Below, one piece after another: positions 3,207 through 11,437 of a DNA stretch of 64,000 bases. The translations under genes and the position numbers were made by a program. Origin of the DNA: Acidobacteriota bacterium (GTDB lineage: Bacteria; Zixibacteria; MSB-5A5; GN15; FEB-12); assembly GCA_035529075.1 (NCBI GenBank), contig DATKXK010000010.1, positions 229,401 through 293,400 of the forward strand. The letters are read 5' to 3'. The notes beneath the pieces were generated by a model. That model did not search any database and was not told the DNA's origin. It saw only the letters and a program-made list of their open reading frames with translations. Numbering within the stretch: position 1 is the stretch's first letter; each line of letters opens with the position of its first letter.

Positions 3207-3625
3207 TTTATCAGACGATGAGTTCTCGCCAGCATGGTCGGTTGCTGCCCCCGTGAGCGGATCGGCGGCAGGTATTGCCAGCGTAAGAGGATGGTATTAG
3301 GTATAGGTCCGCGCGCAGACTCCGTATTCAGGAATCTCGCACCCTCTTACCTCATCATCGCTATGGGCGCAGTCACGCAGAGATCATTGTCATTTCGAAT
3401 TCTTGCGTTCGCCCGGGTCCGGGTGCCTCAAGTGAATTATTCCGGACCTGTCTGACCGGCCGCTGCGACCGGGCACCGAACAGAAACAACTTGGAGATAA
3501 CAGTCGGATTCCTCAGCCAGGCCATATCGGGCCGGCTCAACCATCGCCGGCCTCAAGATTGCCGGGGGTCGTTGTGGAGAAACCGGAAGACTTGCAGGCT
3601 CCGTGGCCTGCAGGAGGAGGAAGTC
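3207..3625 (+). other. long 5' leader of the M6 protease gene
   Basis: About 410 bases lie between the promoter and the ATG with no convincing coding sequence. Just before the start, GCAGGC (3594-3599) and GCCTGC (3606-3611) form a hairpin with a six-base loop that directly abuts the Shine-Dalgarno run AGGAGGAGG (3612-3620). I recognise no known riboswitch class. The leader could be regulatory or simply a long untranslated region. Confidence 0.5.
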
Positions 3626-6600
3626 ATGTTTCAAAAGGGCCTCGCGGTAGTAACCGCGACAGTGCTGTTCTGCTTGCTGACGTCGCCGACATCGGCCGTA
3701 ACACCGCCGGTCAAGGGAGTCCAATTCCCTCAGCACGTCATTGAAGCCCAGAAAGTGATTTCAGAGACGTATGGTGTGTCCAGCATCGCGACCCGCCTGC
3801 GCGAGATCAAACGGGAAAAGGAGCTGGCCGCAGAAACCGACGCCGTGTATCGCCCGGCGACGGTGACGTTTAACATTCCGGTCGTGATGGGGTCGTACTC
3901 CAACAACGCCCATATTTTCACGGCCGGACAGTTTTGGGAGCAACTGTTCGGCTTCAATCCGACCGGGAGTATGGCCGACTACTTCGATGAAGTTTCGTAC
4001 GGTGAGTTCAACGTGACGGGTACCGTCTACGGGCCATTCACGGCAGCCCAGACACAGGCGTATTACGTGCAGGACGATAACGGCTTCGGCGTCGATTTTC
4101 CCACCAATGCCTCCGGGTTCATTTACAGCATCCTGGGCGTCGGCGACCCTACCATTGATTTCTCCCAGTATGATAACGACGGTCCCGACGGCATACCCAA
4201 CTCCGGCGACGACGACGGCTTTGTGGACGCGCTGATTGTGATCTTCCCCGACGGCGACGCCGCGGCCGGTGACAACGACAACCTGTGGGCACACAAGTGG
4301 AATCTTCAATATGGAGCGGGGGCTCCCTATACGACCAACGACGCGCGCTACGGCGGCGGCAATATCGAAATCGATCTCTACACTATCCAGGGAGGGGAGA
4401 AGGGTGCCGGGACGCTCAACCAGATCCGGCCGATCGGCACTTTTTGCCACGAGTTCGGCCACGTGCTGGGATTGCCGGACCTGTACGACTCTGACAACAG
4501 TTCGTACGGCGTGGGCACGTACTGCCTGATGGGTTCCGGAAACTGGGGGGTAGACTGGAGTGTGGACACCGAGCACCACCCCACGCACCCGAGCGCCTGG
4601 TGCAAGGTCGACATGGGCTGGGTCATACCCAAGACCGTCATCCACACCTGGGTGCGGGATATTCCGCCCGTCGAGACCGACCCCATGGTCTACCGGCTTT
4701 GGGAGGACGCTTACCAGGGTACGCGGTACTTCCTGCTGGAAAACCGTACCCAAACCGGTTTTGACGTGGACTTTGCCGGCGAAGGTGTGCTGATCTGGCA
4801 CGTTAACGAGGACGTCTGCTACGACAACTCGGTAGACAACTTCCGGCTGGTCGACCTCGAGGAAGCCGACGGCCTTGACCAGATCGACCACAAGACCAGC
4901 TACATGGACGCGGGCGACTTCTACCCGGGCTCAACCAACAACACCGAGTTCTCCGACGTTACCTACCCCAGCGCCAAGGACGTCTTCGGCGAGTTTACCG
5001 CCGCCGTGGCGACGAACTTCGCCTACGGTGCCGGGTCCGACGTGTCGGTTACGCTGACCCAGCGCAGCCTGTACGGGTATACGCTGGCCTATCACCACCA
5101 CAGCAATATGCGAAGCTGGGGGTCCGCCAGCCCGCAGGTCATGTACGGCGCGGTGCGTTTTACGTCATTCACGGACGGTCTGGTGACGTCGGTGCAACTC
5201 GGGGCGCATGAAGGCACGCCGGTCGGATACAGCGTGCGGATTTTCGACGACATAGTGTCGGGTTCACCGAGCGGCCTGAACTCGACGACGACGGGCACGT
5301 TCCCCAACTATCCGAACGACCGGTATCATGAAATCACGCTGTCGTCACCGCTGACCGTTACGACGGGTCAGACCTTCCTGGTTGACGGCGCCTGGGGACC
5401 GGACGATTACGCCATACCGTATACTTACCGCGAGCCGGTGTCCGGTCAGTCGTTCTTCTCTGGCGACGGCTCGAGTTACTCCAACTGGACGGACAAGGAT
5501 GTGCTCGTTCGTGCCCGCGTTCAGTTTGCCAGCGGCATGGCGCCTGAGATCCTGACGGTTACCCCGGCGCAAAACGAACTGAACGTCGTACCTTACACCA
5601 ACATCTGGGTCAGGTTCAACGCCGACATGGACGAATCCACTTTCACCAACTCGACCTTCGTGGTGCACGGCGATCAGACCGGTCTGCATCCGGGCACGTT
5701 TGGCTATAACTCCCTGACCCATACGGTCACCTTCAATCCCTCGGTCGATTTTGCCGACGGCGAAGAGGTGTCGGTCGTGCTGACCACCGGTATCGAGTCG
5801 GCCGTGGGGATGCCGCTGGACAGCAGTTACGCCTGGTCATTCAGGGTTGCGGTGGTGGACGGCTTTGCCACTTTTGTCACGGATTCGGCGTACTCGCTCG
5901 GTCCGCACATGGCCGTCGTCCCGCAGCACGTCGCGGCGGCGGACCTCGACGGTGACGGCGACATGGACCTCGCGACGTGCAACGCAACGGACACGGTTTC
6001 GGTGCTGTTAAACGACGGGACGGGGACTTTCGGGCCGCACGCGAATTACTACGCCGGCCAGGACCCAACCGGGATCACGGTGGCTGACCTGGACGCCGAC
6101 GGGGACCTCGACATAGCCGTCCCCCGGCAAAGGGACAGCGTGTCGGTGCTGCTGAACAACAGTGACGGCACCTTTGCGCCGGTCGCTTCCTACCCGACGG
6201 CCGCATGGGGCGTCTGTATCGCCCATGGTGATATCGACGGGGACGGAGATATAGACCTCGTGACGGGAGACCACAGTACAGATGAGGTTCGAGTCTCGCT
6301 GAACAACGGTGACGGCACGTTCGCCTTCGGCTACCCGGTGCAGGTGGGTCTGCGTCCGGACGGCGTGACGGTGGCCGACCTGGACAACGACGGTAATCTG
6401 GATATCGCCACGGCCAATACTGATGACAACGACGTCACTGTCCAGTGGAACTGGGGCGGTGGGCTGTTCAGCTACCCCATGGACTACCCGGTCGATGACC
6501 GACCGGTGGCCGTCACGACCGGTGATTTCAACGCCGACGGTCTGGCTGACCTCGCCGTTGCCTGCCTGTGGTCCTGGACCGTCTCGGTGCTGATAAACCA

Positions 6601-8485
6601 GGGCGACAGCATGTTCGCGGTGCACGTGGATTACCCGGTCAGCGAAATGCCGTGGTCAGTGACCGCGGCCGACGTTGACGGTGACGGAGACCTCGACCTC
6701 ACCGCCTCCTGCCCGAATACGGAAGATATATCCGTACTTCTCAATAACGGAGACGGTACTTTTGCACCCTATGTGGCCTATCCGGTTCAGTCAGAGGGGC
6801 CGATGTGCGTAGATCCCGCCGATCTCGACGGCGACGGGGACATGGACCTGGCGGTGGCCTGCCAAATGTCGAGTGACATCGTAGTCATGTTCAACCAGTA
6901 CGCGGCGGTGCCGCACGTTGTGAGCGCTACGCCGGCGCAGAATGCGCTCAATATCGGTCTCGACTCGTCGATTACGATCCGCTTTGACATGGACATGGAC
7001 TGGTTGGACATGAGCGATGCCAACATCACGCTAAACGGCTCGTGCAGCGGCCCGCACGAGTGGAGCAGATCATTCTACCAGCCGGACCTCACCGTGACCC
7101 TGGACCCCGTGATCGACTTCGACCACGGCGAACAGGTGACGGTCGTCGTGACCCGCAAGGTTCATTCCTCCCTCGGGATTCCGCTGGCAGATGCCTATGC
7201 GTGGACGTTCACCGCGGTCGTCGACAGCAGTGACGGTATGTTTGACCTTGATTCGACGTATGCCATTACCGGGTACGAGATTGGTTGCGTATATGCAGCC
7301 GACTTCAACGGTGATACATATCCTGACCTGGCCGTTACCCATCGTTCCTACCGCTATGCCGTAGTGGCACTGAACAACGGTGACGGCACGTACGGGCCCC
7401 CGGTGGCCTACGATGTCGGCAAAAATCCGTATTCGGTGATCGCCGCAGACTTCGACGGCGACGGAGATATCGATGTGGCCACAGCCGAGGACGGTGGCAC
7501 CGGCGTCTCGGTTCTAAAAAACAACGGTGACGGCACCTTCGGCTCGCTGCAGATCTACCCCGTAGGGGCGTGGAAACTCTGTGCGGCTGACTTGGACGGC
7601 GACGGGGACCATGACATCGCAGCCGCGGGGCCGTGGGACAGCCTTTCAGTGCTGTTCAATGACGGCACCGGAGCTTTTGCATATACGCGTACGTTTCCCA
7701 TAAGTCCGGCCGGCACGTATCCCTGGGCCGTCTGTTCGGCGGACCTTGATAATGACGGAGACTTTGACCTGGCGGCGTCCACCACCAATGGCTGGTTCGT
7801 TGCGCTGCTTAACGCAGGGGACGGCACGTTTTCGCAGCACGATGCGAACTGGATGGGGGATGATCCCGATCACATTATAGCTGCGGACCTTGATGGTGAC
7901 GGCGATCAGGACCTGGCCACTGCCCACATGACTACAGACGGAGCGGTGGTGGTCCGTGCCAACAACGGTGACGGCACGTTCGGCGCCCTCTATACTTACC
8001 CGGTCGGTCCCAATGTGTTCTCACTTGTCGCTGGTGACTTGAACGGCGATGGTCACCTTGACCTGGCGGCCACGCCCTTTGGCGCCGCTGCCGCCTCGGT
8101 TCTTCTGAACAACGGTGACGGAACCTTTGCGGAACCATCAGCCTACACGTGCGGTGACGATGCCTGGTTTCTCTGCGCCGCGGACGTAGACAATGACGGC
8201 GCAGTGGATCTTGTCACTGTGAGCGACAGTAAATTCGCCGTCCTTATCAACCGTTGCTGCATGGGTCTGACGGGCAACGTTGACGGCAGCGAGGCCGAGG
8301 ACCCGGATATCGGCGACCTTACGGCCCTGATCGACTACCTGTTCATCTCCCAGCAGGAGCCGGACTGTCCGGAAGAAGGGAACATCGACGGCGATGCGAA
8401 CGGCACGGTCGACATCGGCGATCTGACGGCGCTGATCAGGTACCTGTTTATCGACGCGACTGCCATTCCGGCACCGTGTCAATAG
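3626..8485 (+). CDS. secreted M6-family metalloprotease with two Ig/FG-GAP propeller modules and a dockerin
   Basis: The ATG at 3626 is chosen because AGGAGGAGG lies just upstream and a signal peptide follows (MFQKGLAVVTATVLFCLLTS, cut near TSA). The 1619-residue product has a propeptide, then an M6 (immune inhibitor A-like) catalytic domain with zinc motif HEFGH at 275-279 followed by GLPD. Next come an Ig-like Big_5 domain (about 640-745), seven FG-GAP/VCBS repeats of the type ADLDGDGDMDLA..LNNGDGTFA (about 750-1090), a second Big_5 domain (about 1095-1197), seven more repeats (about 1200-1540), and paired dockerin-like calcium repeats to the C-terminus. It is expected to act outside the cell, with calcium-binding propellers and a dockerin for binding or anchoring. 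The substrate is unknown. Confidence 0.88.
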   Translation: MFQKGLAVVTATVLFCLLTSPTSAVTPPVKGVQFPQHVIEAQKVISETYGVSSIATRLREIKREKELAAETDAVYRPATVTFNIPVVMGSYSNNAHIFTAGQFWEQLFGFNPTGSMADYFDEVSYGEFNVTGTVYGPFTAAQTQAYYVQDDNGFGVDFPTNASGFIYSILGVGDPTIDFSQYDNDGPDGIPNSGDDDGFVDALIVIFPDGDAAAGDNDNLWAHKWNLQYGAGAPYTTNDARYGGGNIEIDLYTIQGGEKGAGTLNQIRPIGTFCHEFGHVLGLPDLYDSDNSSYGVGTYCLMGSGNWGVDWSVDTEHHPTHPSAWCKVDMGWVIPKTVIHTWVRDIPPVETDPMVYRLWEDAYQGTRYFLLENRTQTGFDVDFAGEGVLIWHVNEDVCYDNSVDNFRLVDLEEADGLDQIDHKTSYMDAGDFYPGSTNNTEFSDVTYPSAKDVFGEFTAAVATNFAYGAGSDVSVTLTQRSLYGYTLAYHHHSNMRSWGSASPQVMYGAVRFTSFTDGLVTSVQLGAHEGTPVGYSVRIFDDIVSGSPSGLNSTTTGTFPNYPNDRYHEITLSSPLTVTTGQTFLVDGAWGPDDYAIPYTYREPVSGQSFFSGDGSSYSNWTDKDVLVRARVQFASGMAPEILTVTPAQNELNVVPYTNIWVRFNADMDESTFTNSTFVVHGDQTGLHPGTFGYNSLTHTVTFNPSVDFADGEEVSVVLTTGIESAVGMPLDSSYAWSFRVAVVDGFATFVTDSAYSLGPHMAVVPQHVAAADLDGDGDMDLATCNATDTVSVLLNDGTGTFGPHANYYAGQDPTGITVADLDADGDLDIAVPRQRDSVSVLLNNSDGTFAPVASYPTAAWGVCIAHGDIDGDGDIDLVTGDHSTDEVRVSLNNGDGTFAFGYPVQVGLRPDGVTVADLDNDGNLDIATANTDDNDVTVQWNWGGGLFSYPMDYPVDDRPVAVTTGDFNADGLADLAVACLWSWTVSVLINQGDSMFAVHVDYPVSEMPWSVTAADVDGDGDLDLTASCPNTEDISVLLNNGDGTFAPYVAYPVQSEGPMCVDPADLDGDGDMDLAVACQMSSDIVVMFNQYAAVPHVVSATPAQNALNIGLDSSITIRFDMDMDWLDMSDANITLNGSCSGPHEWSRSFYQPDLTVTLDPVIDFDHGEQVTVVVTRKVHSSLGIPLADAYAWTFTAVVDSSDGMFDLDSTYAITGYEIGCVYAADFNGDTYPDLAVTHRSYRYAVVALNNGDGTYGPPVAYDVGKNPYSVIAADFDGDGDIDVATAEDGGTGVSVLKNNGDGTFGSLQIYPVGAWKLCAADLDGDGDHDIAAAGPWDSLSVLFNDGTGAFAYTRTFPISPAGTYPWAVCSADLDNDGDFDLAASTTNGWFVALLNAGDGTFSQHDANWMGDDPDHIIAADLDGDGDQDLATAHMTTDGAVVVRANNGDGTFGALYTYPVGPNVFSLVAGDLNGDGHLDLAATPFGAAAASVLLNNGDGTFAEPSAYTCGDDAWFLCAADVDNDGAVDLVTVSDSKFAVLINRCCMGLTGNVDGSEAEDPDIGDLTALIDYLFISQQEPDCPEEGNIDGDANGTVDIGDLTALIRYLFIDATAIPAPCQ

Positions 8486-8530: not shown

Positions 8531-8560
8531 ACGCCACCCTCGAGGTTTCGGGGGTGGCGT
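8531..8560 (+). other. 3' hairpin after the M6 protease gene, no T tract
   Basis: ACGCCACCC (8531-8539) pairs with GGGTGGCGT (8552-8560), with an inner CGA/TCG extension and a four-base loop. No run of T follows, so intrinsic termination is doubtful; it may stabilise the mRNA 3' end. A near-identical hairpin follows the next gene. Confidence 0.6.
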
Positions 8561-8593
8561 ATTGTGTTCGGTGTCAGGGATTTGCGAATCTCC

Positions 8594-8621
8594 TTGACAC
8601 AATTGTGGGGGGGGGTATTTT
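8594..8621 (+). promoter_or_regulatory. promoter with G9 tract in a 16-base spacer
   Basis: TTGACA (8594-8599) and TATTTT (8616-8621) are separated by 16 bases, nine of which are an uninterrupted G run (8607-8615) directly abutting the -10 box. A homopolymer here can change spacer length by slipped-strand mispairing, a known cause of promoter phase variation in other bacteria. The transcript would begin near 8628, about 70 bases before the ATG. Confidence 0.72.
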
Positions 8622-8698
8622 GTGAGTGTTAGGGGAACTACCTGCACACCTTCGATTCTGCCCGTCTCACGCAGGCAACGAGTTGACGGGAGGCTGCG

Positions 8699-10336
8699 AT
8701 GAGAGCGCTCTGTTCACTTTTAACAATCTTTATAATCCCGCTGGTGGCACTGTCACTTCAGGCCCAGGAGCACCGCGTCTTTCTGGACGAAGTGTATGGC
8801 CTTAAAGATGATACCACCATCAGGTCCGACGCCCCGGTCGCATTCTGGATCGGCATGGCCAACAGTGAATGTACGTACAACTTTGTCAGCGGCTTTCGTA
8901 TCTGGTCGCCTGACGGTGCCGAGTGGGGCTATCCGTATGTTGATTCCATCTTCGACACCACGCTCAATTTGATTTCGTTGGACCCAGTGGTGTATGAAAC
9001 TATCATGGACACCTTCGTCACGCATGCTCTGGTCTATCCGCCGTTTCTGGACACGGGGGTCAGCTTCAGTAAGTTCTTCGTCAATGAGTACGGTCTGGAC
9101 GGAATCGGCGCCGACACTGTTTCTTTTGCCTGCGTTGGCCTGGTAATTGGGGACGGCATCCAGCCGGGTTATGACGGGCCGGCGTTTGAGATTCCGATTC
9201 AGCCCCGCTCTGTGGATGTGGGCAAGACGATCTGCCTGGACTCGAGTTGGACGCCTCCCGGGGGAGTATGGAAATGGGCTTCCACTGATCCCCATTGTAG
9301 CACTGGACACGATCTCATTCCGGATTGGGACGGGCCGCACTGTTTTGTGATCGGTGACTGCTCGGTGACGGCCGAGCAGCCGGACAGCGACGGTGACGGT
9401 GTCCCGGACGTCTGCGACTTCTGCGCCGGGTATGATGATTTCGAGGACTATGACGGAGACATGATACCGTACGGTTGCGACGATTGGGATGTCCCCGACT
9501 ACCCTGACGGCTGGAGCGCTGTCTGCCGGGTGACGCTGGATGCACCGGAGCTGGTGATGGACGAAGAAAGGGCTATCGTGGCGGAACGCCCCGTGTCCAT
9601 CAAGGTGCGCTTCACGAACGAGAGTGTCGCAGGATTCGATCGAATCGCCAACGGTTTTCGAATCTGGTCACCTATCGGCGCAGAGTGGACCTACCCTGAA
9701 GCGGATACAGTATTCGATACGATTATCAGTCTTATTGATCCCGGACCGCCGATCGTGCTTGATACGGCAGTCGACACTCTTCTGAACGCCCGGGTGGATC
9801 CGGCGTTCGCCGCGCTCTTTGGCGGTTTTCACTACGATGAGCGCAGTCTTGACGGGATTGGTGCCGACACGATCTGGATGGCGGGGAACTCGGTATCTGT
9901 CAATGACGGCATTTCGCCCGGATTCGACCGCCCTGTCTACGAATTCATCATCCAGGCACGGATGCAGGATACGGGACGGTACATCTGTATTGACTCGAGT
10001 TGGTGGCCGCTGGCCGGTACATGGAAGTGGTTCACCCAGTACGTGGGTGTGCCGGACGTGGCTCCGGGCTGGGGTGGTGCGCACTGTTTCCGGATCGTGC
10101 CGACGTGTTGCCTCGGGCAGATGCGCGGGAACGTCGATTACGACGCCGACGATGTGGTCGACATTGCTGACCTGACGGCGCTGATTGACTACCTGTTCAT
10201 TAGCTACACGGAGCCGGTTTGCTGGCAGGAGGCGGACGTGGACGGCGACCCGGACGGGTACATTGACATCGGTGACCTGACGCTCCTGGTGCGGTACCTG
10301 TTCCGGCACGAGGAGCCGCCCGTGCCGTGTGAGTAG
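8699..10336 (+). CDS. secreted two-module protein with C-terminal dockerin
   Basis: The 545-residue product begins with a signal peptide (MRALCSLLTIFIIPLVALSL, cut near QAQ) after GGGAGG. It has two copies of a roughly 200-residue module, about 24-220 and 275-475. Each copy contains NGFRIWSP.GAEW.YP, a run of aspartate-rich turns, GLDGIGADT and a C(L/I)DSSW...GTWKW-like segment. Between them lies a thrombospondin type 3-like calcium stretch (DSDGDGVPDVCDFC). The C-terminus carries two dockerin-like repeats (VVDIADLTALIDYLFI and IDIGDLTLLVRYLF). I do not recognise the repeated module; its function is unknown. Export and a calcium-dependent surface or matrix role are inferred. It is paralogous to the next gene. 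Confidence 0.82.
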   Translation: MRALCSLLTIFIIPLVALSLQAQEHRVFLDEVYGLKDDTTIRSDAPVAFWIGMANSECTYNFVSGFRIWSPDGAEWGYPYVDSIFDTTLNLISLDPVVYETIMDTFVTHALVYPPFLDTGVSFSKFFVNEYGLDGIGADTVSFACVGLVIGDGIQPGYDGPAFEIPIQPRSVDVGKTICLDSSWTPPGGVWKWASTDPHCSTGHDLIPDWDGPHCFVIGDCSVTAEQPDSDGDGVPDVCDFCAGYDDFEDYDGDMIPYGCDDWDVPDYPDGWSAVCRVTLDAPELVMDEERAIVAERPVSIKVRFTNESVAGFDRIANGFRIWSPIGAEWTYPEADTVFDTIISLIDPGPPIVLDTAVDTLLNARVDPAFAALFGGFHYDERSLDGIGADTIWMAGNSVSVNDGISPGFDRPVYEFIIQARMQDTGRYICIDSSWWPLAGTWKWFTQYVGVPDVAPGWGGAHCFRIVPTCCLGQMRGNVDYDADDVVDIADLTALIDYLFISYTEPVCWQEADVDGDPDGYIDIGDLTLLVRYLFRHEEPPVPCE

Positions 10337-10381
10337 GGCGGCAGTATGACTGCGCCCGGCGGTGCCGGTAAGTGAGTTGTG

Positions 10382-10411
10382 ACGCCACCCTCGAGATTTC
10401 GGGGGTGGCGT
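10382..10411 (+). other. 3' hairpin after the two-module dockerin gene
   Basis: ACGCCACCC (10382-10390) pairs with GGGTGGCGT (10403-10411). It is the counterpart of the hairpin at 8531-8560 and likewise lacks a following T tract. Confidence 0.6.
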
Positions 10412-10444
10412 ATTGTCTCGCGTGACAGGGACTTATGAAAGTCC

Positions 10445-10473
10445 TTGACACAATTGTAGGGGGGGGGTATTTT
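10445..10473 (+). promoter_or_regulatory. promoter with G9 tract in a 17-base spacer
   Basis: TTGACA (10445-10450) and TATTTT (10468-10473) are separated by 17 bases that end in nine G (10459-10467). It differs from the copy at 8594-8621 by one spacer base, so the two paralogs sit at different, and possibly switchable, promoter spacings. Confidence 0.72.
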
Positions 10474-10549
10474 GTGAGTGTAGGGGAACTACCTGCACAC
10501 CTTCGATTCTGCCCGTCTCACGCAGGCAACGAGTTGACGGGAGGCTGCG

Positions 10550-11437
10550 ATGAGAGCGCTCTGTTTACTTCTGATAATCCCGCTGGTGGCACTATCACTT
10601 CAGGCCCAAGAGCACATGGTTTATCTGGATAAGGTGTACGGCCTTTATATGGGCTTCGACAGCACCATCAGGTCCGATGCGCCGGTCACATTCTGGATCG
10701 GCATGGCCAACAGTGCATTTACGTACAACGTTGTCAACGGCTTTCGTATCTGGTCGCCGGACGGAGCGGAGTGGGGCTATCCGTATGTTGATTCTATTAT
10801 CGATACCACTGTAAGGCTGATCGATCTGGGGCCGCCGCTGATTCTTGATACGACTATCGATACAATCACCCAGCATGTTCTGGTCTACCCGCCGTTCCTG
10901 GACACCGCGGTTGAGTTCAATGCTTTCTACGTCAGAGAATACGGTCTGGACGGGATCGGCGCCGACACTGTTTCTTTTGCCTTTGTCGGTAATACACCTG
11001 GGGGCGGCATCCAGCCCGGCTATGATGGGCTGGCGTTCGAGATCCCCATTCGGCCCCGCTCGGTCGATGTGGGTAGGACGATCTGCCTGGACTCGAGTTG
11101 GTTTTCACCGGGCGGAACGTGGAAGTGGGCGTGCACTACGCCCAGCTTGCCGGATGTCATCCCGGATTGGGACGGGCCGCACTGTTTCACCATTGGGGAC
11201 GGCTGCTGTTTTGGGGTGAGTAGTGGGAATGTTGATGACGGTCCTGTGGATGTGGTCGACATTGGCGACCTCACGGCGCTTATCGACTACCTGTTCATCT
11301 CCCAGCAGGAGCCGGCCTGTCTCGAAGAAGCGAACGTCGACGGCGATGCGAACGGCACGGTGGACATCGGCGACCTGACGGCGCTGATCAGATACCTGTT
11401 CATCGACGCAACTGACCACCTGGCGCCGTGTCGGTAG
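10550..11437 (+). CDS. secreted single-module paralog with C-terminal dockerin
   Basis: The 295-residue product is paralogous to the preceding protein but has only one module. A signal peptide (MRALCLLLIIPLVALSLQAQ) is followed by the module with NGFRIWSPDGAEWGYPY, GLDGIGADTVSFAF and ICLDSSWFSPGGTWKWA, then a short linker and two dockerin-like repeats (VVDIGDLTALIDYLFI and TVDIGDLTALIRYLFI). The dockerin closely matches that of the M6 protease, suggesting one shared partner. The module's function is unknown. It differs from the 545-residue neighbour in lacking the calcium linker and second module, consistent with expansion or loss by recombination. Confidence 0.82.
   Translation: MRALCLLLIIPLVALSLQAQEHMVYLDKVYGLYMGFDSTIRSDAPVTFWIGMANSAFTYNVVNGFRIWSPDGAEWGYPYVDSIIDTTVRLIDLGPPLILDTTIDTITQHVLVYPPFLDTAVEFNAFYVREYGLDGIGADTVSFAFVGNTPGGGIQPGYDGLAFEIPIRPRSVDVGRTICLDSSWFSPGGTWKWACTTPSLPDVIPDWDGPHCFTIGDGCCFGVSSGNVDDGPVDVVDIGDLTALIDYLFISQQEPACLEEANVDGDANGTVDIGDLTALIRYLFIDATDHLAPCR

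Follow-up and report, generated by a model that had tools for sequence, protein, structure and literature searches.

The question raised by this locus is whether two tandem paralogous genes for predicted exported proteins, each preceded by a promoter with nine consecutive G residues between its -35 and -10 boxes, are phase-variable. The unstable homopolymers of porA, fetA and opc lie between -10 and -35, where they are proposed to alter how the sigma factor binds (PMC2791445), and in the meningococcus homopolymers of at least 8 nt are mostly variable in reads (PMC5084427). Both promoters carry a homopolymer of this size (at least about 8 nt, after PMC5084427), so that G9 lies within the meningococcal range by analogy. 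The tracts are located in a window of 64,000 nt, the whole stretch of DNA analysed, which belongs to a 3.04-Mb genome. On the basis of sequence and analogy we consider it somewhat probable (roughly 0.55) that both are promoter-spacer phase-variable loci of the Neisseria porA/fetA/opc type.

Anatomy of the two promoters and their products

The region comprises the following features, with the basis of each assignment in brackets.

8531-8560, + strand: strong hairpin of 13 pairs, 3' of the M6-peptidase/dockerin gene (fold z = -4.8; terminator-like scan)
8594-8599, + strand: -35 box TTGACA, copy 1 (sequence; promoter scan 10/12)
8600-8615, + strand: spacer of copy 1, 16 nt, CAATTGT plus G9 (sequence; modal spacer length in the genome)
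8607-8615, + strand: G9 tract of copy 1, abutting the -10 box (sequence, G-run counts)
8616-8621, + strand: -10 box TATTTT, copy 1 (sequence; promoter scan)
8622-8698, + strand: 5' leader of copy 1, substitution-free relative to copy 2 (alignment)
8699-10336, + strand: copy 1 protein, 545 aa (sequence, profile and structure-database matches)
10382-10411, + strand: the same hairpin after the copy 1 gene (fold z = -4.9)
10445-10450, + strand: -35 box TTGACA, copy 2 (sequence; promoter scan)
10451-10467, + strand: spacer of copy 2, 17 nt, CAATTGTA plus G9, with an extra A before the tract (sequence, alignment; modal length)
10459-10467, + strand: G9 tract of copy 2, adjoining the -10 box (sequence, G-run counts)
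10468-10473, + strand: -10 box TATTTT, copy 2 (sequence; promoter scan)
10474-10549, + strand: 5' leader of copy 2 (alignment)
10550-11437, + strand: copy 2 protein, 295 aa (sequence, profile match, alignment)

The initial annotation had described two paralog promoters with TTGACA and TATTTT boxes, exactly nine G adjoining the -10 box and spacers of 16 and 17 bases, and we find precisely this at 8594-8621 and 10445-10473. It had also stated that the copies differ by one spacer base, which is true of the spacers and not of the G number, the difference being an A located 5' of the tract.

Both TTGACA/TATTTT pairs score 10/12 and are the top promoter-like sites of the region in the promoter scan, and from their sequence they are very probably the sigma-70-type promoters of both exported-protein paralogs. 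The hairpin at 8531-8560 is a probable terminator separating the upstream M6-peptidase/dockerin gene from copy 1, and that at 10382-10411 probably terminates the copy 1 gene. The leaders extend over 76-77 nt from promoter to ATG, and both contain a GGGAGG ribosome site, in copy 1 a Shine-Dalgarno sequence about 5 nt before the ATG at 8699. That transcription instead starts elsewhere, by upstream read-through or from another site, is very unlikely: TATTTT is not a perfect -10 box and the promoters are called from sequence, which leaves this alternative some room, whereas the score, the optimal spacing, the strong hairpin upstream of each promoter and the conservation of leader and ribosome site between the copies all argue against it. 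The leaders fold in an ordinary way (z = -0.25 and -1.5 in the two copies), and Rfam detected no riboswitch in the window, its matches being two tRNAs only. In copy 1 a 10-nt palindrome, CACAATTGTG (8598-8607), overlaps the end of the -35 box and the spacer; in copy 2 it is shortened to ACAATTGT (10449-10458). The palindrome could be an operator or be due to chance.

The 545-aa protein of copy 1 consists of a signal peptide, two copies of an unnamed domain of about 190 aa and a C-terminal dockerin-like repeat; the 295-aa protein of copy 2 has a signal peptide, one copy of the domain and the repeat, and is 72% identical to the N-terminal half of the copy 1 protein. With signal-peptide-like N-termini read by eye, both paralogs are predicted to be exported and may be surface-exposed. 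Their earlier designation as dockerin paralogs holds in part. The C-terminus contains a duplicated DxDxDGxxDIxDLxxLxxYLF repeat resembling a calcium loop, as in dockerin type I (PF00404), but the profile scores of 20.6 and 21.6 bits fall below the Pfam cut-off of 22.9, and we therefore call the proteins dockerin-like. The best solved-structure match was a dockerin-bearing GH9 chain (E = 3e-4), and the AlphaFold model of the 295-aa paralog had a mean pLDDT of 28, too low for a fold search. The product of the gene upstream (3491-8485), 1664 aa long and exported, combines peptidase M6, FG-GAP repeats and Ig-like domains and ends in the same dockerin-like repeat as both paralogs. The joint of the tandem duplication may lie inside this repeat plus the hairpin.

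Rarity of the tracts and constraint between the copies

The window has three long G runs, two of nine (both promoters) and one of seven. Genome-wide statistics all derive from pattern searches. In the whole genome four G/C runs of at least 9 were seen, the two promoter tracts, a G15 and another G9, where base composition alone predicts about 75, indicating that long G runs are avoided genome-wide; half of the survivors are thus these two promoter spacers. The two tracts have one origin, by tandem duplication of the promoter block, and are not independent occurrences. Reading through the first 100 TTGACA-N12..22-TATNNT matches of the listing, we found no other spacer whose G run exceeds 5.

Both remaining runs lie outside the window. 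The G15 (G000:C15:2890-2904, L243), the longest G run of the genome, separates an ankyrin-repeat gene from a response-regulator gene whose ATG follows after 66 nt. It is another candidate contingency locus, though one with no clear -35/-10 boxes around it. The other G9 (G000:C17:8370-8378, L244:2371-2379) is near the 5' end of a minus-strand HflX-like GTPase gene, with an open frame on the plus strand starting about 22 nt further on.

Alignment of 8591-8714 with copy 2 gave about 123 columns comprising promoter and leader, in which two indels of 1 nt are the only differences and substitutions are absent. Four-fold sites of the two genes differ by 31%, and by 11% within the first 40 codons; even using the lower rate, the neutral probability of such a substitution-free block is below 3e-6. 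This pattern suggests that promoter and leader are held alike, by either selection or local gene conversion, as the proteins diverge. Despite the long separation of the genes both copies have exactly G9, and since the G number is equal, the copies do not themselves document slippage. They appear to record at most one event, beside the tract.

An improbable alternative is that a chance G9 arose in the ancestral promoter, was duplicated in tandem and has been kept identical by gene conversion without any function. It would account for the dependence of the two copies, for the optimal length of both spacers and for an identity that peaks around promoter and signal peptide and declines along the gene, as a conversion tract would give. 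It fits poorly with the strong genome-wide avoidance of G9 runs, and with similar promoters recurring far above chance in unrelated gene families of the lineage.

G-tract promoters in related genomes

Searching the promoter DNA in 40 relatives yielded matches to the own two copies only. Eight regions with protein homologs, from the own genome and relatives, contained a C7 inside a gene as the sole G/C run of at least 7, the gene starts being settled for some of these regions. Pattern searches gave a different picture of the lineage. TTGACA-N5..10-G6-N0..4-TATNNT matched 14 times in 54 family genomes (reversed pattern, 0), and TTGACA/TATNNT promoters in 132 phylum genomes had a G9+ spacer in nine cases and a C9+ spacer in four (reversed, 0). 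Seven of the approximately 239 G9+ tracts of the 54 family genomes, which mostly lie in long open frames rather than promoters, sit in such a promoter, where uniform bases would give about 0.007. Of 109 tracts sampled, nine had an exact TTGACA at promoter distance on the G strand and one on the C strand; with swapped flanks as a control, a weak one as it keeps the -35 box, 5 versus 1.8 of the 109 tracts reached a promoter score of at least 10. Further G9+ spacer promoters lie in front of genes for thioredoxin-like or exported proteins, named by eye from translations.

The clearest case is a set of four lipoprotein-like exported-protein genes in one relative (G020), whose proteins are 31-47% identical and which have a common promoter and leader, TTGACAACTCNTTGA being followed by G9, G9, G10 or G11 (L367:1528 and 2851, L368 on the minus strand at 7748 and L369:3326, with G10, G9, G11 and G9). 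Two of the four are tandem neighbours, and this set is a better test case than the pair in the window. Its length differences are those between paralogs in another genus. Another genome (G012) has two genes, homologous-looking by eye, with TTGACACGC-G10. By their sequences both sets repeat the pattern of the window, a kept G-tract promoter and leader in front of diverging exported proteins. The sequence comparison supports G tracts in promoter spacers as a recurrent, length-varying feature of the lineage.

A different promoter, with homologs in five genomes (G008, G063, G041, G062, G059), has retained a spacer rich in G or GC (G12, G9AG3, GGAG6, GCGCGCGTGGGC, G6AG5), and in four of these genomes the run is broken by an A or is GC-mixed. 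Such interruptions would stabilise the tract. Composition would explain this promoter as well as slippage does, and some promoters may use a G-rich spacer in a fixed role. Some instances (L246-L250, L254) precede genes beginning MARFPRSEAE.

These spacers bear on the main alternative to phase variation, which we regard as unlikely, namely that the G-rich spacer of the window promoters is a fixed functional feature that sets promoter strength, either through DNA geometry or as a regulator site by the palindrome ACAATTGT, and is no switch. The similar length of the G- or GC-rich spacers kept in the five genomes, whether pure or interrupted, speaks for it, as do the G9 of both copies inside a substitution-free block and the palindromic nature of CACAATTGT(G) next to the -35 box. 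A fixed feature is harder to reconcile with the different numbers of pure G in the four paralogous promoters of G020 (9, 9, 10 and 11) and with the finding that promoters of the own genome are not generally rich in G runs.

In a scan of all bacteria (L079-L198), made without a reversed control so that no rate is claimed, the matches listed for TTGACA-G9+-TATNNT included Saccharibacteria, Clostridia, Bacilli, Treponema, Rickettsiales, Streptobacillus and others. Among these listed matches the spacers were mostly 14-20 nt long with a peak at 18-19, longer than usual.

Spacer length and a candidate switch

The pattern TTGACA-N12..22-TATNNT matched 148 times in the own genome versus 26 times for the reversed control pattern, and among 100 listed matches the spacer was 16 nt long in 34 and 17 nt in 35, compared with 2, 11 and 5 for 15, 18 and 19 nt. 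As spacers of 16 and 17 nt are equally common, both copies look ON, and both promoters are probably ON at present. The proposal of the initial annotation that one copy is near the optimum and the other off it is not supported, since the two have the commonest spacers of the genome.

In the phase-variation reading each paralog would have its own sigma-70-type promoter with G9 in the spacer, and slipped-strand mispairing at replication would occasionally add or remove one G, shift the distance between -35 and -10 and thereby change transcription of the exported dockerin-like protein. The present state would be favourable for both copies. Judged by the genome's own spacer distribution, loss of one G (G8) is predicted to give copy 1 a poor spacer of 15 nt, crippling it, and copy 2 a good one of 16 nt, and gain of one G (G10) to leave copy 1 optimal with 17 nt and to weaken copy 2 with 18 nt. 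Slippage in living cells, its effect on expression and its adaptive role are what we infer here. A slip of one G can move no more than one of the copies away from the optimum, which counts against a switch, as does the MutS encoded by the genome. The G9 lengths are those of one assembly, in which G runs may be misread if it was built from long reads.

With Neisseria porA, fetA and opc the window promoters have in common a G/C homopolymer between -35 and -10 of a gene for a protein that is, here, predicted to be exported and a length in single-base units, the related promoters of the lineage (G020) differing in G number. Unlike them, they belong to another phylum-level lineage, probably not a pathogen, and form two tandem paralogs of one design, with 16- and 17-nt spacers containing G9. 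The vlhA genes of Mycoplasma gallisepticum, a variable surface lipoprotein family whose promoters are controlled by repeats (PMC6258824), resemble the window pair and the four G020 genes in that paralogs diverge behind a conserved promoter and leader. In vlhA, however, the repeat is the trinucleotide GAA upstream of the promoter, whereas the window tract is mononucleotide and inside the spacer, and the window and G020 families are smaller. A literature search with a lineage name presumed from dockerin and FG-GAP content (Zixibacteria-like) found no relevant paper; as far as this search shows, the mechanism is known, and the lineage and the setting of paired paralogs are new.

We tentatively suggest, at lower confidence than for phase variation itself, that this uncultured lineage, one without known pathogens, systematically equips small families of exported proteins with hypermutable G tracts in their promoter spacers. 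The proteins would diverge behind a conserved promoter and leader and form a combinatorial ON/OFF surface repertoire, in which the one-base offset would let the window paralogs switch at different tract lengths. A 2025 review raises the possibility that many-locus phase variation seems confined to pathogens because of database bias (PMC11868660). Across 132 genomes of this uncultured phylum, promoter-spacer G tracts recur in 13 strict G/C9+ cases (reversed patterns, 0), several of them before exported-protein genes, and if tract length varies in reads, they would represent clean slippage-based expression switching outside host-associated pathogens.
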